Notes under the pieces: model-generated | Seen by the model: the letters and a program-made list of their open reading frames with translations, nothing else | Told to the model about the DNA's origin: nothing | The model's database searches: none | Assembly: GCA_028554795.2 (NCBI GenBank) | Contig: CM068830.1 | Span: 48,932,227-48,996,226, forward strand | Direction: 5' to 3' | Length of the DNA stretch: 64,000 nucleotides | Source: Sinohyriopsis cumingii | Lineage: Eukaryota; Mollusca; Bivalvia; Unionida; Unionidae | Part shown: positions 1,558 to 18,821 of the stretch, piece by piece | Numbering within the stretch: the first letter of the stretch is position 1 | Layout of the letters: each line of letters begins with the position of its first letter | Made by a program: the position numbers and the translations under genes

Positions 1558-2065
1558 AGTAGTGAAAGGGGTGAGATTAGCGTCAATGGGAATTAGCATT
1601 ACAAACACCCCCTGGGCGAGATTAGCGTCAATGGAAATTTAACATTAACCACCCTGGGCGAGATTAGCGTCAATGGAAATTTAACATGGGCAAAAAACCC
1701 TGGGTAAGATTAGCGTCAATGGAATTTAACATTGGAGAAAGGAAATAAAAGGAAATATTGAGATTAGCGTCAAAGGCATTCGAACAATGGAAAAAAAATA
1801 TCGATTCTAGGGACAAAGGCAATTGAACATGGGGAATAGAGTTTGGGTCTGTCTAGGGACAAGGGGAATTGAACATGGGAATAAAGTGTGGGTTTGTCTA
1901 GGGACAAAGGGGAATTGAACATGTTAGAAAAAAAAACTACTTTAGGGACAATGGGAATTGAACATGGGATTTTTTTTTTTTTTTTTAAATTTATAAAGGG
2001 GTAGGCAATTGAAAAGTCATTCTCTTTTCGAGAAATATGGCTGGCCCTGAAAAGGGCCTTTGGTT
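1558..2065. repeat. Left terminal inverted repeat
   Basis: It matches the reverse complement of 18312-18821 almost base for base over its outer 100 nt and with small indels further in. Inside are two sub-repeat families. Five copies of GAGATTAGCGTCAATGG lie near 1573, 1618, 1660, 1707 and 1760. Four copies of a GGGACAAGGGGAATTGAACAT-like unit lie near 1805-1960. The repeat extends inward to include the histone-like stem-loop of the adjacent gene. Confidence 0.95.
2043..2058 (-). terminator. Histone-type 3' stem-loop (module A)
   Basis: On the minus strand the transcript reads CCAAA, then GGCCCTTTTCAGGGCC (6-bp stem, TTTC loop), then AGCCA. About 14 nt later comes CGAAAAGAGAATGAC, a purine-rich block like a U7 histone downstream element. 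The stem begins 26 nt after the stop codon of the 2085-2465 gene. Replication-dependent histone mRNAs have this arrangement. Use by this element is inferred. Confidence 0.85.
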
Positions 2066-2084
2066 TCTTCTTCTTCTTCTGCTT

Positions 2085-2465
2085 CTAATTTCTTCTTTTT
2101 CTCCACCAACTTCTTATTTTCTCACCTACACTCTTTTTCTTCTTTTTTTTCTCCTCCTCTTCTTTCTTCTCTTCCTCCTCCTCTTCTTTCTTCCTCTTCT
2201 CATTTTCTTCTTCTTTTTCAATTTTTTCATTCCATTTTCGTATTCTTATCCTTTCCTCTTCATCCTCCTTCTCCTCCTTTATTTCCTTCATCACACCACT
2301 TATCATGTCCTTTGCTTTTCTTAAGTTGTTAATCTCCATTTTTACTCTATGCGGACTATAAGAATAGTGGTCTTCAATGAGTCGTACTAGCATTTGTTCT
2401 ATCATGCCCAAATTGTCAAGGACGTCTTGCAATGTTTGAAATTTATCGAGGTGGTTCGAAGCCAT
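2085..2465 (-). CDS. Charged coiled-coil protein, terminal cassette gene 1 (unknown function)
   Basis: A 126-residue frame starting at ATG 2463-2465. Residues 1-60 look like a compact helical region (MASNHLDKFQTLQDVLDNLG onward). From about residue 62 the protein is almost entirely Glu/Lys/Arg with runs of E and K, and it ends in a basic tail, WWRKRRN. I recognise no family. Support for its being a gene comes from its setting: an upstream motif shared with cassettes 2 and 3, a TATA-like GTATAAGAAC, and a histone-like stem-loop 26 nt after the stop. It sits at the inner edge of the left terminal repeat. The low-complexity tail could have grown by replication slippage. Confidence 0.7.
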   Translation of the reverse strand: MASNHLDKFQTLQDVLDNLGMIEQMLVRLIEDHYSYSPHRVKMEINNLRKAKDMISGVMKEIKEEKEDEEERIRIRKWNEKIEKEEENEKRKKEEEEEEKKEEEEKKKKKKSVGEKIRSWWRKRRN

Positions 2466-2503
2466 CTTCTCTGTAGAATGGTTTGAATGACGAATACTGT
2501 GGG

Positions 2504-2544
2504 TTCTTATACGAAAAGCGTGGACGTGAAGGAAAACATCCCCC
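2504..2544 (-). promoter_or_regulatory. Cassette 1 upstream motif and TATA-like box
   Basis: On the minus strand GATGTTTTCCTTCACGTCC (2521-2541) precedes TATAAGAAC (2504-2511), about 40-55 nt before the ATG. A second copy of the motif lies at 2589-2612. The same block recurs before cassettes 2 (3945-3968) and 3 (4824-4846), so it is a shared promoter element or shared 5' leader. Confidence 0.6.
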
Positions 2545-2639
2545 TAAAACATAAAATTGATATTACCTAGATCATGACCTAACATCGTGCGGACGTGAAA
2601 GAAAACATCCCCTACTTTTCTCATTTCATATAATATACT

Positions 2640-3290
2640 ATCCACATAAGTGAAGCAACAATAAACAAACCCCAAATCTACTATTTACACACGCAAATCA
2701 TTAAAACAAAATCCATAATCTACTATCCACACAATCGTACGTGAGCGGTTACAAAACCCAAACTATACTCTCCACATACACTAAGAAACAATAAACAAAA
2801 TCCATAATCTACTATCCACACAATCGTACGTGAGCGGTTACAAAACCCAAACTATACTCTCCACATACGCTAAGAAACAATAAACAAAATCCATAATCTA
2901 CTATCCACACAATCGTACGTGAGCGGTTACAAAACCCAAACTATACTCTTCACATACGCTAAGAAACAATAAACAAAATCCATAATCTACTATCCACAAT
3001 CGTACGTGAGCGGTTACAAAACCCAAACTATACTCTCCACATACGCTAAGAAACAATAAACAAAATCCATAATCTACTATCCACACAATCGTACGTGAGC
3101 GGTTACAAAACCCAAACTATACTCTCCACATACGCTAAGAAACAATAAACAAAATCCATAATCTACTATCCACACAATCGTACGTGAGCGGTTACAAAAC
3201 CCAAACTATGCTCTTCACATACGCTAAGAAACAATAAAGAAACCCATAATCTACCATTCACACAAACTTACGTGAGCAGTTACAAACACA
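2640..3290. repeat. 89-bp tandem array between cassettes 1 and 2
   Basis: About seven units, each with CGTACGTGAGCGGTTAC, CAAACTATACTC and CTAAGAAACAATAAAC blocks. Units start near 2737, 2826, 2915, 3000, 3090, 3179 and a diverged one near 3267. A single related unit reappears near 4205 upstream of the cassette 3 stem-loop. It is internal to the element and not related to the host minisatellites. Confidence 0.85.
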
Positions 3291-3351
3291 AACACACAAA
3301 CACATACCCTCGCACTATGAAAAAAGAGTGTTTATATTCACACTACTCTAC

Positions 3352-3352
<1 letters not shown>

Positions 3353-3395: not shown

Positions 3396-3434
3396 TGGCA
3401 AATTGATGGTTATTTCTTTTCTAGAGTATTGGGT

Positions 3435-3450
3435 AGCCCTGAAAAGGGCT
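3435..3450 (-). terminator. Histone-type 3' stem-loop (module B)
   Basis: Minus strand: AGCCCTTTTCAGGGCT followed by ACCCA, the canonical histone 3' flank. A downstream block CTAGAAAAGAAATAACC starts about 10-14 nt later, then ATTTGCCAA. It lies 30 nt after the stop of the 3481-3879 gene. Confidence 0.85.
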
Positions 3451-3480: not shown

Positions 3481-3879
3481 TTAATGGTGGCACCTTCCAG
3501 GCCTGGCGCCACATACACATCTTGTTCCCCAGTTGCTTTTTACTTTTTTGGGGGAGAGAGCAGAGGCAGGATATGTGGCTTCAGAATCCCAATTTTCGGT
3601 TTCTGGGATTCTGAAATTTCTTCTTCTTTTCTCCTTTTCCTCCTCCTCTTCTTTGTATCTTCTCTCCTCCTCTTCTTTGTATCTTCTCTCCTCTTCTTTG
3701 TATCTTCTTTCCTCCTCTTCTTTGTATCTTCTCTCCTCCTCTTCTTTATTTCTTCTTTCCTCCTCCTCTCTCATTATTCCTTCTTCCACAATGGCCTCCG
3801 CGGCCAGTTAGTTCAACAGGCGCCTGGCATATTCCAGATGAACATGAAGTTCCAACAGTTTCGCCAGTCTCCTGTTCAT
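3481..3879 (-). pseudogene. Terminal cassette gene 2, interrupted by TAA
   Basis: The expected start is ATG 3877-3879, about 50 nt below a TATA-like TATAAATTG and the shared upstream motif. The first 23 codons (MNRRLAKLLELHVHLEYARR...) resemble the start of cassette 3, with the LAKL-E-V-L spacing. An in-frame TAA at 3808-3810 interrupts the frame. The same frame then runs open for about 108 codons of E/R/K/Y repeats (EEEERRYKE units) to a Cys/His-containing end, GTRCVCGARPGRCHH. The continued open frame suggests a recent nonsense change, a sequencing error or readthrough. Downstream GTG or internal ATG starts are possible but less likely. Function unknown. Confidence 0.6.
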
Positions 3880-3968: not shown

Positions 3969-4346
3969 CTAAAAAACATAAAATTGATCTTACCTAGATC
4001 ATGACCAAAAAACAACGCGCGGACCTAAAAGAAACACTCACTCACTTTTTTATACTACCCATTCCTATTCTAAAATTTTTTTTCATTAATCACTCCAATA
4101 TACTATTCACATACGCAAAGCAATTCAATCAACCCCCCCAAATCTACTCTCCCCACACCTCAAACAGCCAAAAAAAAAAACATGATCTTAATCTACTATC
4201 CACGCCAACGTACGTGAGATGTTACAAACACAAACACACAAACACATACCCTCAAACTATAAAAAAGAGTTAGTGTTTATATTCACACTACTCTACCTAC
4301 ACACATTGGCAAATTGATTGTTATTTCTTTTCTAGAGTATTGGGGT

Positions 4347-4362
4347 AGCCCTGAAAAGGGCT
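4347..4362 (-). terminator. Histone-type 3' stem-loop (module C)
   Basis: Minus strand AGCCCTTTTCAGGGCT followed by ACCCC, then CTAGAAAAGAAATAACA and ATTTGCCAA. It is nearly identical to module B, including about 150 nt of downstream sequence, so cassettes 2 and 3 share a recent duplication. It lies 31 nt after the stop of the 4394-4756 gene. Confidence 0.85.
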
Positions 4363-4393
4363 GTGTTTTTTTTTTGTTTGCTATGGCAATCTT

Positions 4394-4756
4394 TTAGTTT
4401 CTAAGAATGCGATGTCCTCTGAGGATAGACTTTCTGGCGATAGGTCTGCTTCTTCGGAAAGAGAAGAAGAACTCTTTGGTGTCGATACGACAATCGACAA
4501 AGCCTCTCTCAGGTTCAGGTTCCTGCTGCTGTTGCTGCTGCCGTTGTTGTTGTTGCTGCTGTCTCTGAAGTCTGTACTTCTCTGTCCATTCTTCTTTCTC
4601 CCTGTTCACTTCATCTCTGAAGAGTTCTTCTATCAAGTCTTCAGTGACTTTTAGCATTCTCACATTGTCTATCTCTTCTGGCTTCGGTATCAGACTGTGT
4701 CTGACCCTATGCAAATTCACGTAGGCTTCGTTTAGCTTAGCTAGTTTGGAGCACAT
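4394..4756 (-). CDS. Glutamine-rich small protein, terminal cassette gene 3 (unknown function)
   Basis: About 120 residues from ATG 4754-4756. The frame is open eight codons further, but only to a TTG, so the ATG is chosen. The N-terminus (MCSKLAKLNEAYVNLHRVRH) resembles cassette gene 2. A helical, acidic middle is followed by a Q/R tract near residues 65-80 encoded by CAG/CAA repeats. The end is Arg-rich (SFRRSRPIARKSILRGHRIL). I recognise no family. The upstream motif and histone-like stem-loop match its paralogues. Trinucleotide slippage in the Q tract may make length polymorphic. Confidence 0.7.
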   Translation of the reverse strand: MCSKLAKLNEAYVNLHRVRHSLIPKPEEIDNVRMLKVTEDLIEELFRDEVNREKEEWTEKYRLQRQQQQQQRQQQQQQEPEPERGFVDCRIDTKEFFFSFRRSRPIARKSILRGHRILRN

Positions 4757-4806
4757 CTTCGTAGGAGGATGAGTCGACAATGGATGGTTAGACTGGAAAC
4801 AACCCG

Positions 4807-4846
4807 GTTCTTAAAGTTAAAGCGCGGACGTGAAGGAAAACATCCC
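4807..4846 (-). promoter_or_regulatory. Cassette 3 upstream motif
   Basis: Minus strand GATGTTTTCCTTCACGTCC (4827-4845) followed at TATA-like spacing by TTTAAGAAC (4807-4815), about 50-60 nt before the ATG. Confidence 0.55.
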
Positions 4847-4849
4847 TCC

Positions 4850-5196
4850 ACGGTTTTCGAGCCGCAATGTTCAATGAGTATCATGAGAGGGATAGTAAGA
4901 AGTCAAAGAGCATGAATCAAACATTCTTATAGCCAAACAAATCACAAAGGCATTTTTTTCAAAACACATAATTTTTTATTCAAAAATCACTTAACACTAA
5001 CCAACAACTCTAACATTTTTTAACAATAATCCAACAATATAACATCAAACATTTTTTTCAATTTACACTCTACTTTAAACAGGGTTGGCAAAGTTGTGAA
5101 TGAAATTGTGATTTCCATTGTTGCAAGTCATTGAGTCATGGATGGACACTACGTTTCCTAGCTTAAGACAACAAAATAAGCATACTAGTCAAAAAA
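4850..5196. other. Intergenic stretch with possible poly(A) signal
   Basis: AT-rich sequence between the terminal cassettes and the central gene block. On the minus strand an AATAAA occurs near 4975, about 220 nt below the stop of the 5197-5679 gene. No histone-like stem-loop is seen here, in contrast to the flanking cassettes. Confidence 0.45.
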
Positions 5197-5679
5197 TCAA
5201 CGATTTACTTTCTCATCGTTTCTAGAAAAATCACGATCAAAATAAGTCACTAAATGTTCTTTTGCTGATAATAAGTGATCAGTTTCGATCTCGACTTTCT
5301 CTTTGAATTTGTCAAAGAGGGTTTTGATGTAATGGATGTCTCGAGTCGTTAATGGAGGACAGAAATATTCACGCAAGTCTTTATACCACCAACGTAACAC
5401 GTCTTTTTTAAACAGACTCCAAGCTTCGTCCAGATATTCGTTGAATTTTTCTTCTTCACTGATGTTTTGACATCCATAGTAATCATGCTTCATCCATGTC
5501 GTAATTGTGTCTGCCAGGTATGTAGCACAGTAGGGGACCAATTGCTGTTCTTGTTCTGGCCATCTCGACTTGATCACGATGTCCTTTTCGTCTTTGTGTT
5601 GGGATTCTCCTTCCACGGTCTCCTCACATTCCATCTTCAAAGCTTCTCCACTAGGTAAAGAAGGATAACAGTCTTCCAT
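5197..5679 (-). CDS. Unknown acidic protein downstream of the capsid gene
   Basis: A 160-residue intact frame from ATG 5677-5679, starting 5 nt after the stop codon of the capsid gene. It is acidic at the N-terminus (MEDCYPSLPSGEALKMECEE), then a helical region rich in W/Y/F (DEAWSLFKKDVLRWWYKDLR). I recognise no family. It has no G-x-HW or catalytic Cys context, so it does not look like the missing maturation protease. Tight packing behind the capsid genes suggests a structural or late role, which is inference only. Confidence 0.65.
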   Translation of the reverse strand: MEDCYPSLPSGEALKMECEETVEGESQHKDEKDIVIKSRWPEQEQQLVPYCATYLADTITTWMKHDYYGCQNISEEEKFNEYLDEAWSLFKKDVLRWWYKDLREYFCPPLTTRDIHYIKTLFDKFKEKVEIETDHLLSAKEHLVTYFDRDFSRNDEKVNR

Positions 5680-5684
5680 GGCTT

Positions 5685-6530
5685 CTAGTAATCTAGAATG
5701 ACTTCTCTCAAACTGTTGATTTCTATGGTATTATCGAATTCTGCATACAGGATGACGTTCAACGTTACATCATCATCACCGATTCTGTTTCCGAACTGAA
5801 TTTCCACACGAATCTGGCCGGATTTTATAGGGTGGAAATGTCCCTCGTCGCTGCCTTGGTCTGGAGTGAAATCAAAAGCCCACAAAGCATAGCCTCCGTC
5901 ATAATCGTCGTACGTAATGCCGTGACTGGTGTTGGTTCCTAACTGTCCCGTGGCTTCGTACAAAGACAAGTACGATCTCAAGTAATTCTTCTTCTCAAAG
6001 TCAGGTTCGAAAGGTCGGGTACACAAGGTCTTGCCATCGCGACTGACTTCAATCTTGGACACGTTGAAGTGATGAAAATTGAAAGGATTTTTAGTGATAG
6101 CTCCGTTGAAGGCTTCATTCGAGACCATACCAAGGATTAAACGTTTGGGTAGCTGTCCTTGGAACAGATGATCTTCGATCATGGATCGCTGTCCCCTAGG
6201 AATGGTGAAAGTTTTCACTTCTACGCGTCGGATCGGATACTTGGCGGTCGTTCTGCTCAACGTCTGACTGATGTCGTTACCTACTTTAGGTAACACTTCC
6301 ACACGACGTACGTAGAGTCTGGCTTCTTGGATTTTGGTTTTGTACTCGCCAGCATCAGCCAATAAATGGAAAGCGGTACTGCTCCGATTCAGTCTCAGGC
6401 GGACATCCAACCCGTTCAGCAAATATTTTTCGTGCAACCACATGTCCAAATGCAAACGATCCATCAGTTCTAAACTTTGGTTGGGTCCTATGATTCTCTT
6501 TCTTCGTTCTACAAATCCCTCATTGGTGGT
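5685..6530 (-). CDS. MCP: Major capsid protein (double jelly-roll), N-terminally truncated
   Basis: The ATG frame at 6464 gives 259 residues. Capsid-like coding continues in frame upstream to about 6530 (TNEGFVERRKRIIGPNQSLE) with no ATG. It matches the C-terminal portion of the Polinton capsid family widely annotated in invertebrates as F54H12.2-like. Recognisable landmarks are MDRLHLDMWLHEKYLLNGLD, KYPIRRVEVKTFTIPRGQ, NPFNFHHFNV and a C-terminal VILYAEFDNTIEINS. Family members are usually about 430 residues or more, so roughly 150 N-terminal residues are absent. The break coincides with the end of the minor capsid gene (stop 6548-6550). A GTAAGT sits at that junction on the minus strand. 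A deletion, a spliced exon or frameshift fusion are alternatives, with deletion simplest. Confidence 0.85.
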   Translation of the reverse strand, partial: TTNEGFVERRKRIIGPNQSLELMDRLHLDMWLHEKYLLNGLDVRLRLNRSSTAFHLLADAGEYKTKIQEARLYVRRVEVLPKVGNDISQTLSRTTAKYPIRRVEVKTFTIPRGQRSMIEDHLFQGQLPKRLILGMVSNEAFNGAITKNPFNFHHFNVSKIEVSRDGKTLCTRPFEPDFEKKNYLRSYLSLYEATGQLGTNTSHGITYDDYDGGYALWAFDFTPDQGSDEGHFHPIKSGQIRVEIQFGNRIGDDDVTLNVILYAEFDNTIEINSLREVILDY

Positions 6531-6547
6531 TGTTTTTGATACATGAC

Positions 6548-7462
6548 TTACGAGTCGTGAGAGAACCGTTTTCGAAAATGGAGTTTCACCGTGACTTTTC
6601 CTTTGGTGAATGGAATATTTTGTCCCAAATCTCCTTTTATAGCAATGTTGACAGTGTCCAAATACGACTTGCTGACAGGCAAATAATAAGGATGCACAAA
6701 TTCCCGGTGGACGTGATAGGTGTTTCCACCTTCCTGGTCACTGGTCGTGGTACTATCCACTTTGAAAGGAATGACACGCAGTAACGGTACGGAGGTGTGT
6801 CCCACCACGTTGTACTCCACCACATCGGAGTACACGAACATCAAATTCAGTCCTTGGTTCAGTTCTACAGGGAATCGAAAAAACTTGTAAAATTCCGTAT
6901 TGCTGTTGATCTTCGGTTTAAAATTTGCAGCCATTTTTGTGTCTCCACCTAAAATATCAAACAAGTCACGATTAAAACTGATGGACAACGTTTGGGTATC
7001 CTGAAATTTCATCAGTAAGCGACGAGCCACTTTATGGTACTCCAGGGTGACACTTTTTTTGACTCTGTTCAGGGCTTTGCCAAAGGCGAACTCGAACCTG
7101 GAAGTAATGGTGTCCACCAAATGTTGGCCACTAAAATAAAACCCTGCCGGAATTTTCAAGGTGTAGATATTGAAGGGTGAATTGTTGGATGGTCTTGTGT
7201 CCCCTGAAAACCCGATGTCATTCATGGCTTCTTGTAATTGTTGGTTCATGATTTCGACCTCAAAAGTGTTTTGCTTTTCGGTGATGTTTTGGATTTGTGT
7301 AGGGTGAATCATTTCTACTAAAGCCACTTCCCAATGCGCTTCGTGATCTAACTGGATGGCTTGAGGTAATTTAGCCGTGTAACAGCACAACGTGTTGTGG
7401 GGAAACACCTCCATGGAACTGTCACTGGGTAAGGTTAAGTAAAATTGGTTTTCGTGACTCAT
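6548..7462 (-). CDS. mCP: Minor capsid (penton-like) protein
   Basis: An intact 304-residue frame from ATG 7460-7462. The start (FYLTLPSDSSMEVFPHNTLC, then an ELDHE-type segment and WEVALVEMIHPTQ) is the typical opening of the Polinton minor capsid/penton family, a single jelly-roll vertex protein. The length fits. It overlaps the stop of the upstream membrane protein gene by 4 nt (ATGA). It ends immediately before the capsid frame, so the three form a tight virion block. Family assignment is from recalled patterns, not a search. Confidence 0.8.
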   Translation of the reverse strand: MSHENQFYLTLPSDSSMEVFPHNTLCCYTAKLPQAIQLDHEAHWEVALVEMIHPTQIQNITEKQNTFEVEIMNQQLQEAMNDIGFSGDTRPSNNSPFNIYTLKIPAGFYFSGQHLVDTITSRFEFAFGKALNRVKKSVTLEYHKVARRLLMKFQDTQTLSISFNRDLFDILGGDTKMAANFKPKINSNTEFYKFFRFPVELNQGLNLMFVYSDVVEYNVVGHTSVPLLRVIPFKVDSTTTSDQEGGNTYHVHREFVHPYYLPVSKSYLDTVNIAIKGDLGQNIPFTKGKVTVKLHFRKRFSHDS

Positions 7463-7878
7463 AATTCCAGAGTTCTGTGGCTGTCCGAGGGGTTAGTGGA
7501 TGTCAGAGGCGTGTCTCCGCCCAAAATGGGGTTCTGGTTGTGGTTGTTGTTGGAGTGGTGACTGGCACTGGCACTGGATACAAGGTTCCCGTGGTTCCCG
7601 TTCGAGGAGAATTTCAGGGAGGGATTGGGAAGCAGGTAACCGATGCAACTGCTCAATAAAATGGTCCACAATTGTTTGTCTCCTTGTTGCAAACTCAAAA
7701 TGGCAATGGCTGCCCCGATGACACAATACACCACGAAGATTTGGCAGAAAAAGACGATTTGCGTTTTAGGCACACGTTCTCCACACCACACCCACAAGGG
7801 TTGTTTTTGTAAATCTTGCACAGAAGAACTAGGTGAAGGAGGAGTGGTCGACGTAGCTGCGTCTGTGTGAAAGGGCAT
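7459..7878 (-). CDS. Two-helix membrane protein of the virion block
   Basis: 139 residues from ATG 7876-7878. The frame is open three codons further, only to a GTG. Two hydrophobic segments are visible: IVFFCQIFVVYCVIGAAIAI (about residues 42-62) and LWTILLSSCIGYLL (about 70-85). The N-terminus is Ser/Pro-rich and the C-terminus Asn/His/Ser-rich. Small two-span proteins next to capsid genes are common in Polintons and could act in an internal membrane or in entry. That role is inference. It overlaps the minor capsid start by 4 nt and begins 6 nt below the integrase stop. Confidence 0.65.
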   Translation of the reverse strand: MPFHTDAATSTTPPSPSSSVQDLQKQPLWVWCGERVPKTQIVFFCQIFVVYCVIGAAIAILSLQQGDKQLWTILLSSCIGYLLPNPSLKFSSNGNHGNLVSSASASHHSNNNHNQNPILGGDTPLTSTNPSDSHRTLEL

Positions 7879-7883
7879 GATGG

Positions 7884-8994
7884 TCACTTCTTTTTATAGT
7901 CGATGACTTGCGAAGCGTCGATCCAAGAATCAAAACTGGGTGGATATCCTTTCCAACGTACTTTGACTTCTTTGACACGTCGTTTGCCCACTTTACGGGT
8001 TCTGCGTTCGAGAATGCTTTCGATGTCGTACACGTCGTCTTCTTTTTTGGTCACACGTTGTAACTCGGGCAAATAAAACGTTCCTTTGAGCACTTCTCCG
8101 TTCATGTCTTCCAATTTATAGACGGCAGGATGACGGCCATGCACTCGTCCAGTGACGCGAAACAATTCGGTCGTCCAATTAGGTAAGTAACCTTTGTCGA
8201 AAGTGCGTTTTGGTTTTGCCAATGCGCACCCAATCTCCTACGGCCAACTCTCCACTTTTCTTGGGGACAGCCCTCGTCGGGGACGTACCGAACAGACGCT
8301 CAAACACCAACACTTCGTTGTCGGGAGTCACGTCTTGCGGGGCACGTCCGATGCTTCGATGGTAAGATTGGTTGTACGCTTGCACCAGGTGCGGTAAGAT
8401 GTCGATGTACTTCAGAGTGTGGTGATGCGTAAAATATTTCCACATGCGTTCTTTCAAAGTGCGTTGAAAACGTTCCACGATGCTGGCTTTGGTTTCGGGA
8501 TTCTCGGTGGTAAAAAAATGAATGTCACGTTTCTTTAATTCTTTTTGGAAAGCTTGGTTCAGAAATTCGGTGCCTTTGTCCGTTTGCCATCGAAGAGGGT
8601 GACGACCGCTTTGTTTCAACACCCGTTGCAGGGCTCGCACTAACTCGCTGCTCGATTTGGAAGTCAAGGGCACGACCCAGACAAATTTGGAAAAGACGTC
8701 GATGACACAAAACAAATATTTGTAGCCACGATTGTAGCTGGCCAAATAAGAGACATCGGCTAAATCGGCTTGCCATTGATGATCGATGCCTTCCACTCGG
8801 GTGCGACTTCTGGCAAACTTGCGTCGAATGGGTTTGTGTAAAGTGTAGGTAGCTTGTTCTTGTAACCATCGTTGCACTTGAGGTAAACGGAGACTTTTCA
8901 GTTGCGTTTTGGCAGCACGATACAATTTTTGAACTCCTGCGTAACCTGCAGGATGCGAGGGATCGTAGTAAATGCTGGCTAAGTCTTTTTCCAT
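7884..8994 (-). pseudogene. INT: Retroviral-type integrase with chromodomain, frameshifted
   Basis: The first frame starts at ATG 8992-8994, although it is open upstream to a GTG, and ends at 8179. A second frame from about 8222 to 7884 carries the C-terminus. The rve core shows D in WQADLADV, D in WQTDKGTEF and E in ASIVERFQ, with 34 residues between the last two, the D,D-35-E type. A chromodomain lies near the C-terminus (DVYDIESILERRTRK, VKVRWKGYPPSFDSWI). The two frames overlap over the same codons near 8213-8224 (a GGCAAAACC context). A single-base shift has therefore split one gene, or a programmed +1 shift is used. Its product would cut 6-bp staggered targets, matching the TCCATC duplication. 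Confidence 0.9.
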
Positions 8995-9014
8995 TTTTTG
9001 TGTTGGTTGGTGTG

Positions 9015-9653: not shown

Positions 9654-9697
9654 AGGGTTGTCAGGGGTCAATTCTGAGATCTTGGGACTTCTGAGGG

Positions 9698-9707
9698 CCT
9701 TTTTATC
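9698..9707 (-). promoter_or_regulatory. TATA-like box for the 212-residue gene
   Basis: GATAAAAAGG on the minus strand, overlapping the last codons of the upstream gene (stop at 9703-9705) and about 45 nt before the ATG. Confidence 0.45.
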
Positions 9708-11074: not shown

Positions 11075-11115
11075 GTTCGCACTGTGAGTGAGACAGACCA
11101 AAAAGAGTCTGAGGT

Positions 11116-11123
11116 TTTTATAG
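11116..11123 (-). promoter_or_regulatory. TATA box for the basic protein gene
   Basis: TATAAAAA on the minus strand, 42-50 nt before ATG 11074. It overlaps the last codon region of the ATPase gene (stop at 11118). Confidence 0.55.
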
Positions 11124-11873
11124 ATTTTTTTTATGTGGAGTGAAATGAAGTCGAGGACGGAGACGTGTACAGGACAGGCCCTCCGTCTTGGCACCAGTGG
11201 TGAAACAAGTGGGTACGAAATCGCAAATCATCGGGGTCGTAGGTTTCAAATCGACGAGTAAATAGGCGTGTGGAGTTTGAGTGGCATCGTCGTACGCCTG
11301 AGTCAGCCAAGGCGTTCCTAACTGTTTGGCTAAGACTTGCACTTGCGATTTATCTCGAGGGCTTTTAAACAAGACCACGTAATGCGCATTGAGACTGATG
11401 GTGCGATGGGCTTTACTTTGTTGAAACAAATTTTGGGTGATGTAAACGACACTGGCATTACGGTGATGCCCTTTGCGCGTAAACCACAGTTTAATTTCTT
11501 CTTCGTCTTCTCCTAACATGTCGTCGAAAATGACCAAATGGGTTTGACGGGAGTCAGAGACGATGCCGTCGTCTTCTTTAGGAATACCTTCCACAAACAC
11601 GATGGAATCGCCTTGACTTTCTCGCAAAAGGCTGTACGCCGATTGCCACTCTTTGTAACACCACACGATCCGCTGAGGTGGTCGATCGATCAAATGATGT
11701 TTATGTTCGATCAAACGTTTGACAAATTCGGTTTTGCCTGAACCGCTAGGTCCAGCAATGAGCATGTTAAAGGGATGGCGAAGATACAAAGCCTCCCAAC
11801 TGGCACGATCTAAGTGTTCGTCGATGACTTTGACAGTGGAGGAAGAGGGAGCAGAGACAGCAGAGGTAGCCAT
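11118..11873 (-). CDS. ATP: A32/FtsK-HerA type genome-packaging ATPase
   Basis: An intact 251-residue frame from ATG 11871-11873. Walker A is AGPSGSGKT near residues 40-48. Walker B is HLVIFDDML near 112-120. A sensor-like VVYITQNLF follows, in the expected order for the Polinton/adintovirus and poxvirus A32 family. The product would pump DNA into preformed capsids, matching the neighbouring capsid genes. A TATATAAA at 11920-11927 lies about 50 nt upstream, so it can be expressed from its own promoter. The C-terminus is basic (RLRPRLHFTPHKKN). Confidence 0.92.
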   Translation of the reverse strand: MATSAVSAPSSSTVKVIDEHLDRASWEALYLRHPFNMLIAGPSGSGKTEFVKRLIEHKHHLIDRPPQRIVWCYKEWQSAYSLLRESQGDSIVFVEGIPKEDDGIVSDSRQTHLVIFDDMLGEDEEEIKLWFTRKGHHRNASVVYITQNLFQQSKAHRTISLNAHYVVLFKSPRDKSQVQVLAKQLGTPWLTQAYDDATQTPHAYLLVDLKPTTPMICDFVPTCFTTGAKTEGLSCTRLRPRLHFTPHKKNL

Positions 11874-12327
11874 AGTGTGAGAAATGTCACTTGTGACACG
11901 AAAACAAACAAGACAAGAGTTTATATACTTTTTCTCAGAACACTTTCATTGAATGATTCAAACATGAATACGAAAGACAAAAATACATAAAAGTCAAAGT
12001 CTTAAGTATAAGGATAAAAGGCACATGATAACCATCAACGTGGAATAAACACAAGTGTCTGTACAACATGTTTTGGGTAATGTTCTAACCAGTTCTATAG
12101 TAGGGGGTAAGGTCACACAAGTGTCTCCCGAAAGGGTCTTTCAGGCCTGTCCACGACAGTCCAGTCCTGGGTGACGGGTTCTTCTGGCACCGTCACTAAC
12201 ACAGGTTGAAAAGTCGCAAGGCTCACAATTGCATTCCACTTCAGAAGCCCCACACTTTAATTGTGCCTGTCTAAACTTGTTTTGTGTCTCTCTGAAAGTA
12301 TTCATCTTGTTCGCTCGGTCTTGGTAG
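11874..12327. other. Gap between PolB and ATPase, with TATA box
   Basis: About 450 nt without a coding frame. A TATATAAA box on the minus strand at 11920-11927 serves the ATPase. No histone-like stem-loop follows PolB here. A partial GGGTCTTTCAGGCCT at about 12133 on the plus strand does not form the stem. Confidence 0.5.
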
Positions 12328-15300
12328 TCACAATGAACTATCGATCTTGCCTAGGGTTCCTTTTATATACAGACCAATACCGACATGTCCATACGGTAAG
12401 GTGAAATGATTGGGAAGTCGCACTCGCTTCTGGTACACGATTTGATAGACTTTTTCCAAGGGTCGACTGACGATGTGGTGAGTGGGTAAACGTACAATTT
12501 TGTTCGGTTGATAGGTGGTCACTTTAAAGTTTGCATCCTCTCCCGATTGCAAGGCTTCTTTCAATGCCCCAAAGTTCACCACACGACTGGTACGATAATT
12601 CAGAGTCAATCCTTTCACTTTACACGTCGTGTGCAATTCTCCTTGTGGGTCCCGGTATTCGTAGCCGTAATTTTTGGGACCACCACTGACGAAACTTAGA
12701 ATCTTGTCGTCGGGATGTTCGTCTGTCCAGGCTCCTAAACGGTCTCCTTCGATGTCAGGGTGCTGTTGACTCGGGTGATGGATGTAAATGCAACTGTCCG
12801 TGTCAAAGTACAGGACACGTTCCCCTAACAGTTCTAAAGCTTCGTACAATTTTAAGCGAGCATGAGCTGTCACGTAAGCCGCAATGATGACATTTCCAAA
12901 GGGGTCGTCTTGTACAAAGTCCAGATCTTCTTCGTAATTGACCAAGATCAAATCCTCGCGAACGACGTCCACGTGTTTGATGTATTTGGTTTTGTCGTGA
13001 ATCATCTGAAAGTAGCGGGAAGGTTCTGTCAAATATTCCGTCTTGGGTAAACACGGTCGTTGTGCCATTTTACCCCACAAGCAATTTAACATCACTTTGG
13101 CAAACGACCGCCTGCCTTCGTTTTTCTCGATGTGGTCTAAAGAGATGCCTTCTTGTTCATAGTATTTCTCTTTGAATGTCTTTTCGTCTTCGGAAGTGTG
13201 ACACCAGGAAGGATAGCCGCTGGCTTCTTGCTTCAGTTTCAAAAAGGCATCCACGTAGTCGGCGAAAATGCCTTTCTGACTGGGGTCACCCTTGTGGTAT
13301 TGTTGTGTCTTGGGAAAGTGGCAAATTTCGTACACTTCTAACAGTTGGTATCCCATGTCCAGAGCTTTGAACAATTCTACGCTGACCCAGGTTCCCGTCA
13401 AGGCCCGTTCTTCCTGGGTGTGCTGACAAGGTTGGTCTTGTTTGCACGTTTCGGCACAAGTACGACACAATGGAAACATCAGTTTGCCTTGGCAATGATG
13501 AGGTAAGACGGGATGGTATAGGTTCGTGGGAGGCAAAACTTTACACTTGATCAAGCCTTCGTATTGTCGAATGTTTTTCAGGTCGATGTGTTCCGTGAAC
13601 AATTGTGGGTGCCCTGCAGGAAAGGGACAATATTTGCACACGTAAGGATACAACGACCACACGTCCAAGTATTTGATTTCTTCTCCTTTCTCTTCGTCGG
13701 CTTGGTACAGCAAACAGGTGGCATTGGTCCTTCCTCCGTACAAACTATCCCTCGGGTTTAGGGGGTCCATCAGCTTGTAACTTTCCACGGCACGTTTAAA
13801 CTCGGGATCGGTTTTCATACGGTGATCGTACTCGTGTTCCCACATTTCCACCACTTGGTATCCTTGCTGTTCTAACTTTAGGCGTCGCTGACAAGTGTCC
13901 TGGTACAAGTCTTCCATGGTTCGTTGTAAAAACTGATTTTTAGTGCTACGATCAGGGTAACAGACGGGACATCCGTGAAATAAGCAACCGTTAAACTCGT
14001 ACACGATCTTGGGGTTTTCTAAGTCCCAGCCATCGACCGAATACGTTCCGATGGTCTTTTCGCCTCCTCCGTTGCGGGCATGCTGAATCCATTTGTCTTC
14101 CTTGTCGCACAAGTAATGTAACCAACGTAGGGCTTTGACCGAGTATTGACGTTTGACATAGTGGGTCGTTTGAGGACTGATGACAGCCACGGTCTTTTCA
14201 GGCATGAATCGTTGTCGATACACTAAGGAACACGCTTTGGCAATGGTGCAAGCTTCTTTCAAAGGATCGACCCCTCCGTGTTCCATGAACAGTTCTCGAA
14301 ATTTTCCACAGCAACGCCGTAAAATGTCCACGTCGGAACGACAATACTTTAGCATTTCTTCCTGAAAGTCGAAAGGGTCGGAGGCGTGAGTCTGGTACCA
14401 AGCGTAGAAAGCTTCTCATTGTTCGGTACGCATGTTGTCGGGGTCGTAATAGTGAGCCTCAGGCAAATGGGGTAGAACGGCGTGTTGATTGGCTTCCGTA
14501 TTGAAAAAGTGTGGAAAGTACCCTTTAGCCATTTCTGTCATTCCAAACGTTTTAGGCATTCGACTCAAAGGCAAGGCCAAATAGCTCATCGAATCTTTAA
14601 ACTGCACTTGTACACTTGCATGAAAATGATTTTGGCTCCGTTCAAAGTGACTTTAGGACGTTCGGTGCCTTGTTCCGTATAGTATCTGAGAAGAAACTGT
14701 CCATCGTATCCGGAGAAATTGTGAGCCATCACTGTGGCATGACGATGACAATCTCCGTAACGTTCGATGTCCTCTTGGCTCCACTTCTTGTCGATGGGAT
14801 CTAAGACCCATTGGGCAAAATCGGCTAACGTGTTCGGTCCTCGAAAGATTTTTTCACGCCCTCCGGGAATCTTGCTGCAGTGAGGGCAATGACTGAAGAT
14901 AGGTTCTTGAATGCACTTCTCGCACGCTCGATGAGCCACGCAGAAATTAGGAATGTGAATGCCAGTCTCTTGCATGCATTCGAAATCGAAAAAGATGAAA
15001 TTGCCTTTCTTCTTGTGAGCGTCCTCTTTCTCTGGTGGGGGTTGGTATTTTTGCACGTAGCATTCGTGTTTCAAGTCCACGATGTGGTGACAAATGTGAC
15101 ATTTTTTCTTTCCTGAACATACGTGTGCCTTGGCATTATTGTTACATAGGCCTTGTCGACACGTAGGGCACAGTCTCAGCAGTTGACAAGCACATTTCTG
15201 CTGTGAACCTTGCGTCTTCAGATGTTGTTGGTAACAGGCAGGGCTGACAAACGTGCGCAGACAAGCAGGACAATGTACTCTTTCTTGTCCTTCGCTCAGA

Positions 15301-16283
15301 CAGGGTGGAGAGGCCAAACATCCTGGGCATTTCCATCCGCAATGTTTGTGTTGCTCTCGATTGTTATAGCCATAGTCACATTTCTCACAGTAATAACTGT
15401 ATCCCAGGAATCCAGTGATAGTGGTAATGGTATCGAAATGGTCATCGTGATAATAGACATGAATGTATTTTCCGTCCTTAAAGTCTTTCCCTCGAAACAA
15501 CAGAGGCCCACGCACTTCTTGAGGGTGCACTTTCAAGGTGTAGCGTGGAGCTAGGACATCTTGCAATTTTTGCAATTCAGGAATGCCACAGGGTGTGTCT
15601 TTGGACAGGCCAGCTTGTTTCAACAGGAGTTCTGCTTCGTTTCGTTGTTTGGCTCGGTCCGATTGTTGAATAGTTTTCCAGGTTCTTTTCCATTCTGCCG
15701 TGTCGTTCTTGTTGGCATAGGTTCGTCCCACCACGATGGCTCGGGCTAAGCACATTTGGTCTTGAGGGTTGTTAATTTGGACGAGAATCTTTTTGGTGCT
15801 GCGAAGGTCGTTCACCAATAACACCTTATTGCGTTGTCCGGTCCCTTGAGGAGGAGAGACGTGGGCCATTTTCAGTGTGGCTTTACCATCGGTGATGTCA
15901 AACTGGTCATTAGATTGTTGTACGTGTTGAATCTTGTCCATGACTTTGGAAGGGGTTAGTTCTGCGGGTTTGCTAAACTCGATCCAAACAGGGGATTTCA
16001 AGCTGTCGTGATCTATGGATAGTGTCAAGCGATCGTCTTCTTTGGGTTGACATTGTCGCTTGAGTGCGGTGAGCAAAGAATCCCACATCTCGGTGATAAA
16101 CCCTTCTGCTTTCTCCAATGGTACGTCGGACTTGAAATCTTTAAACTTCACTGTGTAGGTGTAAGCCGTGGTTCTAAATTTTCTAGAGGAGCGCTTTTCC
16201 GTCTCTCGAATGGAATAGTACTTTTCAGGATTAACTAAGGGTGGTGAACTTTGTTTAGAGGGTTCGGATTCTGGTTCACTCAT
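12328..16283 (-). pseudogene. POLB: Protein-primed DNA polymerase B, broken by a frameshift and a TGA
   Basis: About 1,310 codons on the minus strand in three pieces. The first piece (ATG 16281-16283, ending 14586) has an N-terminal domain, a Cys/His-rich zinc region (many C-x2-C pairs) and exonuclease motifs FFDFECMQ and HNFSGYDGQF. A one-base shift near 14590-14605 moves to the frame of 14605-14416. A TGA at 14416-14418 stops it; the same frame continues immediately. The remainder holds YCRSDVDIL (Exo III) and palm motifs DVWSLYPYV, KVMLNCLWGK and FDTDSCIY. Length and order fit Polinton PolB, which copies the linear element with terminal-protein priming. Coding resemblance continues about 15 codons above the ATG (AEVLAQIHASDF), shared with the second copy at 32866. 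Confidence 0.93.
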
Positions 16284-16541
16284 GTCCTCTTCAAAATCAC
16301 TGGCATGAATTTGTGCCAAGACTTCAGCTCTGGTACGAGGCGATAGATCACGTTTCTACCTCTTACTTTCTTCTTCTTTCTTTTCGAATCAATAGGATCG
16401 TTTCATCTTGAGTGCAAAACGTCAAATGACTCAAGTTTAAACTCCATAGACTAATTTATAGTCATGACAAACCAGCGTATATAAAAAGGGTGTGTGTCTT
16501 GTCCTTTCACTGTTCATTTCACTCTCAAACCGAGCACAACG
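16284..16541. promoter_or_regulatory. Divergent promoter of PolB and the zinc-knuckle gene
   Basis: Two back-to-back TATA boxes lie about 25 nt apart: TATAAATTAG on minus (16453-16462), facing PolB, and TATATAAAAAGG on plus (16478-16489), facing the zinc-knuckle gene. The plus box is 64 nt before ATG 16542, a compact pol II layout. Confidence 0.65.
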
Positions 16542-16991
16542 ATGGAAGAGACTACCCAGATGGAACGTTTCATCAGAGCTTTGCGAGGGGTCATTAGAAA
16601 ATTCTCTTCAGACCAGCCGACGGACTACTCTCCTTCCTTTCGAGATAAAAGTCAAGATACTTGCTATATCTGTCAGAAGAAAGGGCATTGGTCTTCAGAG
16701 TGTCCAGACCGTCAAAAAAGAAAAAAAAGGGCTAGAAAAGACAAAAGTCAAGATACCTGTTATTATTGTCAAGAAAAAGGACATTGGTCTCAAGATTGCC
16801 CAAAAAAGAAACAAGAGGAGTCGGAAGAAAAGAGGGATTCTTCAGAAGAAGAGAGAGATTCTACAGAGGAAGAAAGCAGCCAGGTGAAGAAAAAGAAACA
16901 GGAGAAGAAAAGAAGAAGGGAAGAAAGTGAGGAGGAAGAGGAGGAAAAGACTGTGACGGTGAAGAAATTGAAAAAAAAAGAGAGAGTATAA
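16542..16991 (+). CDS. CCHC zinc-knuckle protein with acidic/basic tail
   Basis: 149 residues from ATG 16542. An upstream GTG extension lies within the leader and is rejected. After MEETTQMERFIRALRGVIRK come two zinc knuckles of C-x2-C-x4-H-x4-C form, CYICQKKGHWSSECP and CYYCQEKGHWSQDCP, separated by a basic linker. The rest is a long E/S/K/R-rich tail. Such knuckles bind single-stranded nucleic acid, as in retroviral Gag or CNBP, so a role in replication intermediates or RNA is plausible. It is transcribed away from PolB. A decayed homologue occupies the matching position in the second element (32278-32676). No histone stem-loop follows; the downstream sequence has a palindrome CACTTTATAAAGTG at 17017-17030. 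Confidence 0.85.
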   Translation: MEETTQMERFIRALRGVIRKFSSDQPTDYSPSFRDKSQDTCYICQKKGHWSSECPDRQKRKKRARKDKSQDTCYYCQEKGHWSQDCPKKKQEESEEKRDSSEEERDSTEEESSQVKKKKQEKKRRREESEEEEEEKTVTVKKLKKKERV

Positions 16992-17248
16992 AAGAAAGAA
17001 ACAGAAGAAGTGAATGCACTTTATAAAGTGTTCTGTTGTGAATTGTGAATTGGATTGTAACTATGGAGAAAAGAATACATTAATTATATAAGGTAAGTGT
17101 CTTTGAGTTTTGATTTTAAAATAAGAAGCTACACTCACGCACTCATACACAGACATGTACTATAAGGGTAAAATGGTTTTTTTTTTTTGTTGTTGATTTT
17201 TGAGTTATTGGCAAATTTAAAGGCTATCTCTTTTCGAGAGAAGTGGGT

Positions 17249-17264
17249 GGCCCTGAAAAGGGCC
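17249..17264 (-). terminator. Histone-type 3' stem-loop (module D)
   Basis: Minus strand GGCCCTTTTCAGGGCC followed exactly by ACCCA, then CTCTCGAAAAGAGATAGCC and AAATTTGCC. This is the closest match to a metazoan histone 3' end in the window. It lies 25 nt after the stop of the 17290-17841 gene. Confidence 0.9.
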
Positions 17265-17289
17265 TTTTTATTTTGGTGTAGGGGTGAGT

Positions 17290-17841
17290 TTAAGCAATCA
17301 ACTTTAACTGCCTTAAGCCTTTGCCACGGCCGAGGCCTACTTCTGATGATTGGATTGAAATCACTAAGGGTGGTACGATAGGCTTAGTCACAGGGTTGGC
17401 ATGTTTAGCTCGGGAAGGTCGTATTCTCTTCGGTCGTGATAAAGAAGTCTGATACATTTGTTTCAGACTTCTTAACTCCGCTAAAATGTCCAACAGTACC
17501 GTAGCCGTTTGATTTTCACCCTCTTGTTTCTTTGCTGCTACTTCTTCTTGTTGTTGTTTTTTTCTTACCTCTTCTTGTTGCTGTTGCTGTTGCTGTAGGA
17601 GAAAAGCTTGTTCCGCTTCCTTTTGTCGTTGTATAAATTTCTCCAATTCTTCTTTCTGTCTCTGTCTAAAATTCTCCACTTGTGGTAATGAAGAATGAGA
17701 CGAAGGTTCCGGAACAAATTCTTGCGAGGTAAGAAAATCCACAAAATCCCAATGTACCTCTTCTGAAAGTAAGTCCGGGTTCCCTTGGGTGGTCTCCACT
17801 GCTGGTGCACCCCAATGGATCGTTTTCTGAGTTTCCGTCAT
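17290..17841 (-). CDS. Glutamine-rich coiled-coil protein with histone-like 3' end
   Basis: 183 residues from ATG 17839-17841. The N-terminus is acidic (TIHWGAPAVET, then EEVHWDFVDF and SQEFVPEP). Residues 55-110 form a Q/E/K coiled coil (RQRQKEELEKF, then Q runs). A conserved segment follows (TATVLLDILAELRSLKQMYQ), then a basic patch (RPKRIRPSRAKHANP) that could be a nuclear localisation signal, and the tail GKGLRQLKLIA. A second, degenerate copy at 31411-32035 conserves both ends and the LLDILAELRSL segment, so the gene was under selection. The upstream region has TATATAGA (17888-17895) and TGACGTCA. A nuclear regulatory role is inferred only. Confidence 0.8.
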   Translation of the reverse strand: MTETQKTIHWGAPAVETTQGNPDLLSEEVHWDFVDFLTSQEFVPEPSSHSSLPQVENFRQRQKEELEKFIQRQKEAEQAFLLQQQQQQQEEVRKKQQQEEVAAKKQEGENQTATVLLDILAELRSLKQMYQTSLSRPKRIRPSRAKHANPVTKPIVPPLVISIQSSEVGLGRGKGLRQLKLIA

Positions 17842-18060
17842 GTTGAATCACTGTCGCATAGATTGACAGCACACAGGCGCTAGCGAATCTATATAGACCA
17901 CATGACGTCACAGACTGCTCTCTTCGGATTGGATGCGGACTGACTGAATTTTGTAACGCGTGTTCGGATTGGTGAATGGACTCAATCCGTTTCAATCCTT
18001 CCTCTACCTATAAATAAACGCAGTTCACTGCATTGATTCACCTGTTCTCGTCGCCTCACG
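17842..18060. promoter_or_regulatory. Bidirectional promoter with CRE, CCAAT-type and TATA elements
   Basis: Facing left it has TATATAGA (17888-17895) behind the ATF/CREB palindrome TGACGTCA (17903-17910). Facing right it has TATAAATA (18009-18016), 45 nt before ATG 18061. Between them are repeated GGATTGG/CAATCC boxes and a GTAACGCGTGTT block. The second element at 31182-31410 preserves the order, including AACACGCGTTAC, TATATAGA and ATTTATAG, which supports function. Confidence 0.75.
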
Positions 18061-18294
18061 ATGTGGACCACAGTTGAATCATCCACCCTTGTGTCTTCCA
18101 TGATGTTTAGGACGGACATGCTCATGTATGTCCGGTCCAAGTGGACTGTTGTTGATAGGACAGATACTAGTCTATGGATGAGAAGAGTTTACATAGAAAG
18201 ACAAGGATGTCTCAAGAGGGTACTTGTGTATGGACCTGCAGTTAGAAGGAGTTTAAGAAGAAGAAGAAGATGTGACAGATGCCGTCTATGTTAA
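18061..18294 (+). CDS. Small Arg/Cys-rich protein with histone-like 3' end
   Basis: 77 residues from ATG 18061. The conserved part is the C-terminal half: YIERQGCLKRVLVYGP, VRRSL, a run of five arginines and a C-x2-C-x2-C-type end, CDRCRLC. The broken copy in the second element (30944-31181) keeps a matching C-terminus with the same ERQGCLKR, YGP, RRSL and terminal Cys residues, so this is a true gene although short. It could bind nucleic acid or zinc. No known family is recognised. It starts 45 nt below TATAAATA and ends 24 nt before a histone-type stem-loop. Confidence 0.8.
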   Translation: MWTTVESSTLVSSMMFRTDMLMYVRSKWTVVDRTDTSLWMRRVYIERQGCLKRVLVYGPAVRRSLRRRRRCDRCRLC

Positions 18295-18311
18295 TATTAA
18301 TATTAACATAA

Positions 18312-18821
18312 ACCCAAAGGCCCTTTTCAGGGCCACACACATTTCTCGAAAAGAGATAGCCTTTCGATTGCCTACCCCGTTATAAAAAATTTTTTTAAAA
18401 CAAAAAAAATCCCATGTTCAATTCCCCTTGTCCCTAAAGTAGTTTTTTTTTCAACATGTTCAATTCTCCTTTGTCCCTAGACAAACCCAAACTCTATTCC
18501 CATGTTCAATTCCCCTTGTCCCTAGACAGACCCAAACTCTATTCCCCATGTTCAATTGCCTTTGTCCCTAGAATCGATATTTTTTTTTCCATTGTTCGAA
18601 TGCCTTTGACGCTAATCTCAATATTTCCTTTTTTTTCCTTTCTCCAATGTTAAATTCCATTGACGCTAATCTTACCCAGGGTTTTTTGCCCATGTTAAAT
18701 TTCCATTGACGCTAATCTCGCCCAGGGTGGTTAATGTTAAATTTCCATTGACGCTAATCTCGCCCAGGGGGTGTTTGTAATGCTAATTCCCATTGACGCT
18801 AATCTCACCCCTTTCACTACT
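18312..18821. repeat. Right terminal inverted repeat
   Basis: Reverse complement of 1558-2065, with the same five GAGATTAGCGTCAATGG and four GGGACAA...ATTGAACAT sub-repeats. It includes module E at its inner edge, so the two outermost genes of the element share an inverted 3' module inside the terminal repeats. Confidence 0.95.
18319..18334 (+). terminator. Histone-type 3' stem-loop (module E)
   Basis: Plus strand CCAAA, then GGCCCTTTTCAGGGCC, then ACACA. GAAAAGAGATAGC starts about 14 nt later, where histone genes carry the U7-pairing element. It lies 24 nt after the stop of the 18061-18294 gene. With modules A-D this is the fifth occurrence. Confidence 0.9.

Follow-up and report, generated by a model that had tools for sequence, protein, structure and literature searches.

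Histone-type stem-loops and downstream boxes follow the terminal genes of a Polinton family in Sinohyriopsis cumingii

Two described systems come closest to the locus considered here. The first is the 3' end of replication-dependent histone mRNAs (Rfam RF00032), for which an SLBP/U7 processing mechanism is described in part of PMC7026596. Our locus resembles it in its 6-bp stem, 4-nt loop and short A/C-rich flank, as well as in a purine-rich box with an AAAAG core that lies at the distance found in the host H1, H2A, H2B, H3 and H4 genes. The second comprises the Polintons/Mavericks and adintoviruses, with which it shares terminal inverted repeats (TIRs), a 6-bp target-site duplication, a DNA polymerase B, an rve integrase with a nearby chromodomain, an A32-like packaging ATPase and a penton-like protein. 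Our main reading, to which we assign a probability of roughly 0.84, is that the signals closing the terminal accessory genes in this Polinton family are true histone-type signals for 3' processing by SLBP and U7.

The Polinton and its terminal genes

The window, a 64-kb stretch of S. cumingii DNA analysed as a whole, contains an element of about 17.26 kb (1558..18821) with the ends AGTAGTGAAAGG.../...CCTTTCACTACT. It has the TIRs of a Polinton (left copy 1558..1992, right partner 18387-18821, repeat blocks 91-100% complementary) and is flanked by a 6-bp target-site duplication, TCCATC, at 1552..1557 and 18822..18827. The Polinton gene set is present on its minus strand. An A32-like packaging ATPase lies at 11118..11873 (PF04665, 7.5e-8) and an rve integrase at 8179..8994 (PF00665, 7.6e-15), the latter adjoined by a chromodomain ORF at 7884..8105 (PF00385, 1.1e-8). 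The DNA polymerase B region (12328..16283) is divided between separate ORFs at 12328-14355, which carries the PF03175 match (1.3e-28), and at 14416-14589 and 14586-16283, which are assigned by position only and lack a Pfam polymerase match. A putative penton-like (minor capsid) protein at 6548..7462 is assigned by fold only, with TM values of 0.40-0.52 (mavirus penton 6g41: Foldseek E 6.7e-10, TM 0.40). Among the remaining ORFs no Pfam match to a major capsid protein or a maturation protease was found, and these may be present in unrecognised form. None of the core genes (polymerase, integrase, penton, packaging ATPase) has a downstream hairpin.

All five terminal genes, in contrast to this core block, are followed by a histone-type stem-loop, at the positions and in the orientations that an earlier, sequence-only reading of the window had given. 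On the left, three genes are read from the minus strand: g126 (2085..2465; 126 aa, Lys/Glu-rich), with its stem-loop at 2043..2058; g97 (3481..3774; 97 aa, with the C-terminal end GARPGRCHH), with the stem-loop AGCCCTTTTCAGGGCT at 3435..3450; and g120 (4394..4756; 120 aa), with the same AGCCCTTTTCAGGGCT at 4347..4362. On the right, g183 (17290..17841, minus strand), which encodes 183 aa with a Q/E-rich middle and a basic C-terminus and has 20 homologs, is followed by GGCCCTTTTCAGGGCC and then ACCCA (stem-loop at 17249..17264, minus strand). Its neighbour g77 (18061..18294, plus strand; 77 aa, with an Arg/Cys-rich C-terminus) is followed by GGCCCTTTTCAGGGCC and then ACACA (18319..18334, plus strand). 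Between these two genes lies a putative divergent promoter region of 219 bp (17842..18060) with two CCAAT boxes and a TATAAAT on the g77 side. On the g183 side we spotted CTATATAG by eye, and a script search of the g183 strand in the same interval returned no TATA match.

The stem-loops begin 26, 30, 31, 25 and 24 nt past the stop codons of g126, g97, g120, g183 and g77, respectively, which bears out the range of 24-31 nt proposed earlier. The purine-rich box that had been placed about 10-14 nt further downstream is found as GAAAAGA after every hairpin, starting 13 nt past it at four sites (2023..2029, 3415..3421 and 17229..17235 on the minus strand, 18348..18354 on the plus strand) and 14 nt past it after g120 (4326..4332, minus strand).

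When the RF00032 model was run over the 64-kb window, the five sites scored between 26.6 and 41.8 bits (E-values 5.6e-9 to 0.0029) against a curated cut-off of 34 bits. The score that the sequence-only reading had expected from an SLBP-type model was thus obtained, with two of the five sites over the cut-off: 18319 (41.8 bits) and 17264 (38.4 bits). The sites at 2058, 3450 and 4362 fall below it with 33.9, 31.0 and 26.6 bits (E 5.1e-6 to 0.0029), their stem and loop being unchanged except for the outer pair. None of the five terminal proteins has a Pfam histone match, nor does any of the 24 ORFs scanned (a subset of those in the window) match a Pfam histone family, in keeping with the earlier statement that no histone gene is present.

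The window also holds a second, truncated relative at about 30.9-34.5 kb, whose proteins are 58-67% identical to those of the first and which retains remnants of both signals in unchanged places. Two further sites, absent from the sequence-only reading, belong to it. A damaged stem-loop with box (30877..30921, minus strand; RF00032 28.7 bits, one broken pair) follows a g77-like remnant, and a decayed stem-loop (32050..32065, plus strand; no RF00032 match) follows a g183-like remnant of 58% amino acid identity.

Agreement with the host histone genes

The histone genes of the host were located in the same genome, and in the one repeat that was read H3, H4, H2B, H2A and H1 all carry a hairpin of the same kind, that of H2B being identical to the Polinton hairpin. 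The AAAAG core follows the hairpin by 14 nt in H3, H4 and H2B and by 15 nt in H2A and H1, and four of these five histone types share the downstream element CTAGAAAAGA. In the mobile element the core stands 14 nt past the hairpin in 60 of 62 cases, so the Polinton box equals the host downstream element in core and position, while the flanking letters differ in part: the letters before the core are CTCG or CTAG in the window boxes and CTAG or CCCG in the host histones. The 3' flank of the hairpin differs too, being ACCCA in 51 of the 62 element hairpins and ACACA, ACAAA, ATACA or ACTTT in the host histone genes. The claim that these genes have histone-type 3' ends with U7-like elements is therefore supported, as the host's own histone genes show a hairpin of this kind together with an identical core at the corresponding distance.

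The two trans-acting partners were sought in the host. Neither RF00066 (U7; 65 of 801960 candidates scored) nor PF15247 (SLBP; six frames) gave a match, and since the controls were equally silent both searches are uninformative on the presence of U7 and SLBP. A U7-like pattern gave 58 matches, compared with 34 in a reversed control. Fourteen of the 58 share a length of 20 nt, three of these, among the matches listed, reading TCTTTTCTAAATTTGTCTNG, and these 20-nt matches offer a lead towards a candidate host U7.

Placement, conservation and abundance across the genome

Within the one host genome searched, a hairpin within two mismatches was found at 108 of 112 distinct Polinton gene ends, the ends being placed by protein similarity and L029, which duplicates the window, being left out; four ends have no recognisable hairpin. 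Split by the way in which the loci were chosen, the counts are 54/57 in loci chosen by g183 protein, 48/48 in those chosen by RF00032 and 6/7 in the window. Among the 108 hairpin-bearing ends, the box reads exactly GAAAAGA in 100 and starts 13 nt past the hairpin in 104. With L029 included, 111 of 115 hairpins lie downstream of a gene of one of six types, in the sense orientation, and none is antisense, a placement in related copies far from the random one that the sequence-only reading had named as evidence against itself.

This orientation also bears on the idea that the hairpins are terminal palindromes whose role lies at the DNA level, be it replication, packaging, recombination or the termination of transcription, and not in the processing of RNA. 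Two of the five window hairpins do adjoin the TIRs on their inner side and mirror one another. However, the other window hairpins are internal, the orientation follows the gene, and the asymmetric loop, 3' flank and box agree with those of the host histone genes; we therefore regard a DNA-level role as very unlikely.

The exact pattern of hairpin, flank and box has 40,613 matches in the genome, none in its reversed control and none in 31 histone loci. In the RF00032 genome search 75 of 75 scored matches passed the cut-off, and all 28 that were inspected lie in relatives of the element. A wobble form of the hairpin has 127 matches. Chance hairpins were dropped as an explanation because of the RF00032 E-values, the fixed place after genes and the empty reversed control; contamination was dropped because g183 copies occur on each of contigs C1-C19 of the assembly, in which the histone arrays lie as well. 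With 114 genome matches for host H4 and five genes in one repeat, element sites outnumber histone genes by an estimated 70:1. If transcribed, they could burden the histone supply, a form of host-element conflict. This excess invites the suggestion that the sites, once transcribed, act mainly as decoys, sponging SLBP or U7 and disturbing the supply of histone mRNA while bringing their own genes little advantage. A decoy would, however, have no need of gene ends and fixed spacing, to both of which the sites are tied, and we consider this the most improbable of the alternatives.

The hairpins also vary in a manner that preserves their structure. A G-C pair is replaced by A-U on both sides of the stem in 14 of 62 hairpins; in the stem alignment 98.5% of cells are paired, and two pairs show changes of both partners, seen in 11 rows, so that the 6-bp stem and 4-nt loop are kept by compensatory change. 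Across 46 g183 and 41 g77 ends, a set in which some loci were chosen by hairpin score and L029 is counted besides the window, the spacer and the distal flank both vary more than hairpin and box do. Protein-chosen, near-identical copies show no clear extra constraint (hairpin pi 0.004 for g183 vs 0.050 for g77).

The latter result would sit well with simple hitchhiking, in which a captured histone 3' end is no longer used and is merely inherited by copies, the real mRNAs being polyadenylated. Several other features point the same way. The hairpin modules are probably copied from one another, and so would not be independent acquisitions. In three of the five window modules the stretch 3' of the box resembles host H2A (shuffle fractions 0.003, 0.006 and 0.013 in 25 comparisons), whereas the other two lack this likeness (0.36 and 0.82). 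Moreover, 26 of 113 hairpins, among them that of g183 in the window, have an AATAAA in the 12 nt preceding them, so that use of a poly(A) site is conceivable there; under this reading g183 mRNA would perhaps be polyadenylated at that AATAAA. Downstream, AATAAA occurs within 200 nt of only 8 of 115 hairpins; as A[AT]TAAA is found within 300 nt of just 2 of the 13 hairpin-free window ORFs listed, this rarity is no special mark of the hairpin genes. Against hitchhiking, the signal is kept at a short distance after six gene types and in the relative with 58-67% protein identity, and the hairpin persists where both partners of a pair have changed. On balance we consider it unlikely that the signals are unused relics.

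A possible S-phase route and its relation to known systems

The hairpin, its spacing and orientation, its agreement with the host histone signals and its abundance suggest that the element uses the S-phase histone mRNA machinery of the host instead of poly(A) tails. In the model that we favour, of true histone-type processing, host SLBP would bind the hairpin of the transcribed terminal genes, and host U7 snRNP would pair with the GAAAAGA box and direct a cut a few bases past the hairpin. The resulting short mRNAs would end in a hairpin, lack a poly(A) tail and go through synthesis, export, translation and decay in the manner of replication-dependent histone mRNAs, and so mainly during S phase. 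Polymerase, integrase, penton and packaging ATPase, the genes of the core block, lack the signals and would be expressed by another route. We infer that the signal probably originated in a host-type histone gene and then spread between element genes as a roughly 50-bp module.

A broader proposition is that a virus-like transposon family, with histone-type gene ends numbering in the tens of thousands in a single animal genome, has placed a whole class of genes under the replication-dependent histone pathway, giving poly(A)-free, SLBP-dependent accessory genes timed to S phase and the early embryo, with a separate core block and possible titration of SLBP and U7. To this we give slightly better than even odds. 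If true, it would add a large class of non-histone genes to that pathway and offer a straightforward way to link the expression of transposon or virus genes to replication of the host DNA. The Polinton hairpin and box sites likewise offer a natural test bed for the specificity of SLBP and U7.

An open-access, non-exhaustive literature search found no prior report of histone-type ends on Polinton genes, and no match came from viral_contigs when polB, the ATPase, the g183 family alignment and two stem-loop patterns served as queries. Compared with replication-dependent histone mRNAs, the 17.3-kb element differs in that its signals, seen here at the DNA level, stand on the non-histone genes of a mobile element; compared with Polintons/Mavericks and adintoviruses, it is distinguished by the histone-type ends of its accessory genes. 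A further point of reference is the adomavirus Histoid, a virus-encoded histone-like gene described in part of PMC11071296. Both cases involve borrowing from histone biology, with the difference that in the adomavirus the protein is histone-like, whereas in the Polinton the likeness is confined to the 3' end of the mRNA.

Histone-type hairpins at the ends of terminal Polinton genes

The Rfam histone 3' stem-loop model (RF00032, cut-off 34 bits) matches all five of the 16-nt hairpins that the sequence-only reading had placed after small terminal genes of the Polinton, two of them above the cut-off, with E-values from 5.6e-9 to 0.0029 in the 64-kb window. The highest score belongs to the plus-strand match after g77 (18314-18359, 41.8 bits; genes are named by protein length), followed on the minus strand by those after g183 (17269-17224, 38.4 bits), g126 (2063-2018, 33.9 bits), g97 (3455-3410, 31.0 bits) and g120 (4367-4323, 26.6 bits). 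Measured distances from stop codon to hairpin were 24, 25, 26, 30 and 31 nt, in line with the 24-31 nt claimed. Down to E 10, a scan of the entire window lists nothing from the histone stem-loop model in the stretch from 4367 to 17224, and the core genes (polB, integrase, penton and packaging ATPase) are therefore without a hairpin. A zinc-knuckle gene with two CCHC motifs at the right end (16542-16991, plus strand) also has no histone-type hairpin, in contrast to its neighbours g183 and g77. None of the five terminal proteins matches a Pfam histone family.

The same gene ends were followed through the 2.9-Gb host genome, where 75 RF00032 hits were scored among 589,472 first-look candidates and 28 of these (ranks 1-22 and 70-75) were inspected. 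All 28 fall in relatives of this Polinton, and no hairpin after a histone ORF was found in these loci. A regular expression recovered 62 hairpins from the 28 loci and the window (GGCCCTTTTCAGGGCC 37 times, AGCCCTTTTCAGGGCT 14 times, other forms 11 times), with ACCCA as the next five bases in 51 and the AAAA core of the downstream box, GAAAAGA, 14 nt past the hairpin in 60. A further 30 loci were picked by g183 protein similarity, independently of the hairpin, and six gene-end types, five from the window and g182 from another host locus (L004), were placed by tblastn over the 58 loci and the window. This gave 110 hairpins at 114 gene ends when L029, the second copy of the window element, was included. 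On a recount without L029, and excluding 22 hits that end short of the C-terminus, a hairpin with at most two mismatches stands at 108 of 112 gene ends (54/57 in protein-chosen loci, 48/48 in RF00032-chosen loci and 6/7 in the window); the box is exact in 100 of these 108 and begins 13 nt past the hairpin in 104. Random placement in related elements, which had been named as evidence against the claim, was not what we observed: 111 of 115 hairpins (two of the 115 being L029 repeats) stand downstream of one of the six genes, in sense orientation and no more than 150 nt away, and not one is antisense, the remaining four following damaged reading frames (two) or lying at locus edges (two). Hairpin loss is rare: at locus L055 the g77 hairpin is missing and the g183 one is damaged, and at L047 the g77 hairpin is missing. 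Evidence for constraint on the hairpin among recent copies is mixed.

The exact pattern GCCCTTTTCAGGGCYANCCAN{6,12}GAAAAGA has 20,126 + 20,487 = 40,613 matches in the genome and none for the reversed control. It matches three of the five window sites and none in 31 histone loci, and therefore undercounts element sites and excludes these histones. At three to five sites per element, an estimated ~8,000-13,500 element equivalents are suggested. Five g183 copies at a regular spacing of ~11.85 kb (G000:C7:136329944-136377886) look like a tandem array of elements.

Correspondence with host histone genes

An H4 query returned 114 matches in the host genome, most of them 100% identical and with a period of ~8.27-8.29 kb, and one histone repeat (from host loci L074, L089 and L075) contains H3, H4, H2B, H2A and H1. 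The hairpin of host H2B is GGCCCTTTTCAGGGCC, identical to the element hairpin; those of H3 and H4 are GGCCCTTTTTAGGGCC, that of H2A GGCCCTTTTAAGGGCC and that of H1 GGTCCTTTTCAGGACC, with RF00032 scores of 35.0-39.4. An AAAAG core follows 14 nt past the hairpin in H3, H4 and H2B and 15 nt past it in H2A and H1, set in CTAGAAAAGA in four of the five genes and in CCCGAAAAGG in H2A. The left inner modules (hairpin plus box) of g97 and g120 contain exactly the host CTAGAAAAGA, and those of g77, g183 and g126 contain CTCGAAAAGA. In 11 aligned rows, element and histone sites share without exception the loop T's, the majority of stem positions, the A that follows the stem and GAAAAG; 98.5% of stem cells are paired and two pairs are altered on both sides. 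In both core and position, the claimed U7-like block thus matches the downstream element of the host histone genes, an agreement that is independent of finding U7. Repeated 20-nt U7-pattern matches occur at 14 places in the host assembly (e.g., C1:179822481-179822500, minus strand) and are candidate host U7 genes or pseudogenes; the three with letters displayed read TCTTTTCTAAATTTGTCTNG, complementary to TAGAAAAGA, and are joined to a U7-like Sm site.

Proposed processing of the terminal-gene mRNAs

As described in PMC7026596, CPSF73 cleaves between the stem-loop, to which SLBP binds, and the downstream element, with which U7 snRNP pairs; the upstream product is the mature mRNA. The element has these cis parts in place. 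We consider it probable (about 0.84), judging from sequence, that the terminal-gene ends are true histone-type 3' processing signals used via host SLBP and U7. AATAAA occurs within 200 nt after 8 of 115 hairpins, a scarcity that lends weak support since other window ORFs are rarely followed by AATAAA either. Within 12 nt before the hairpin it occurs in 26 of 113 cases, including the g183 of the window, and this counts against a simple histone-end reading. It would fit a captured histone 3' end that hitchhikes, no longer used, on polyadenylated mRNAs, an explanation we regard as improbable. These AATAAA sites and the recount without L029 made us very slightly less confident of histone-type processing and gave the hitchhiking alternative very slightly more weight. 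Some histone 3' ends are also able to recruit the poly(A) machinery, according to PMC9756948, so the hairpin ends may serve both histone-type processing and polyadenylation.

Origin of the signal and setting in the element

A second Polinton relative (30881-34550), truncated, damaged and inverted in arrangement, shares 72-86% nucleotide identity in pieces and holds g77-like (67% protein identity), g183-like (58%), zinc-knuckle-like and polB-like remnants; a sixth RF00032 match lies at 30921-30877 on the minus strand (28.7 bits). Because this relative keeps damaged versions of both signals at matching places, the hairpin arrangement probably predates its split from the element. The stretch after the box resembles host H2A in g97, g120 and g183 (shuffle fractions 0.003, 0.006 and 0.013 in 25 comparisons) and shows no such resemblance in g77 and g126 (0.82 and 0.36, same 25 comparisons), at most a hint that the signal derives from a host-type histone gene. 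Short contigs from other sources carry 20 homologs of g183 (57-86% identity), so this gene is probably not private to the genome. Among the open-licence PMC matches listed, none links histone 3' ends to Polintons or adintoviruses in its title or the opening of its abstract; in the one adintovirus paper searched for the word, PMC11071296, "histone" refers to histone-like proteins.

Long inverted repeats and a 6-bp duplication, TCCATC (1552-1557 and 18822-18827), delimit the element at 1558-18821, which encodes an rve integrase, an A32-like ATPase, polymerase B over several ORFs and a chromodomain ORF; Pfam recognized no major capsid protein or protease among the element ORFs scanned. A tandem array between g126 and g97 (2712-3243) holds six copies of TCCATAATCTACTATCC spaced 87-89 nt apart, and two copies of a short tRNA-like repeat in inverted orientation, possibly a SINE (by eye), lie outside the element at 1073-1323 and 19794-20041. 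Environmental protein sets contain 63 homologs, at 25-78% identity, of the penton-like ORF (6548-7462, minus strand, 304 aa), and its structure model (pLDDT 92, from a 44-sequence alignment) matches the mavirus penton 6g41 with E 6.7e-10 and TM 0.40, and adenovirus penton bases with TM ~0.5. The hairpin genes are small and lie outermost: g126, g97 and g120 on the left, and the divergently oriented pair g183 and g77 on the right. The 219-bp divergent region common to this pair has two CCAAT boxes, TATAAAT toward g77 and, on the g183 side, CTATATAG, found by eye and outside the TATA pattern searched; no E2F-like site was found. We take this layout to resemble that of divergent histone gene pairs.
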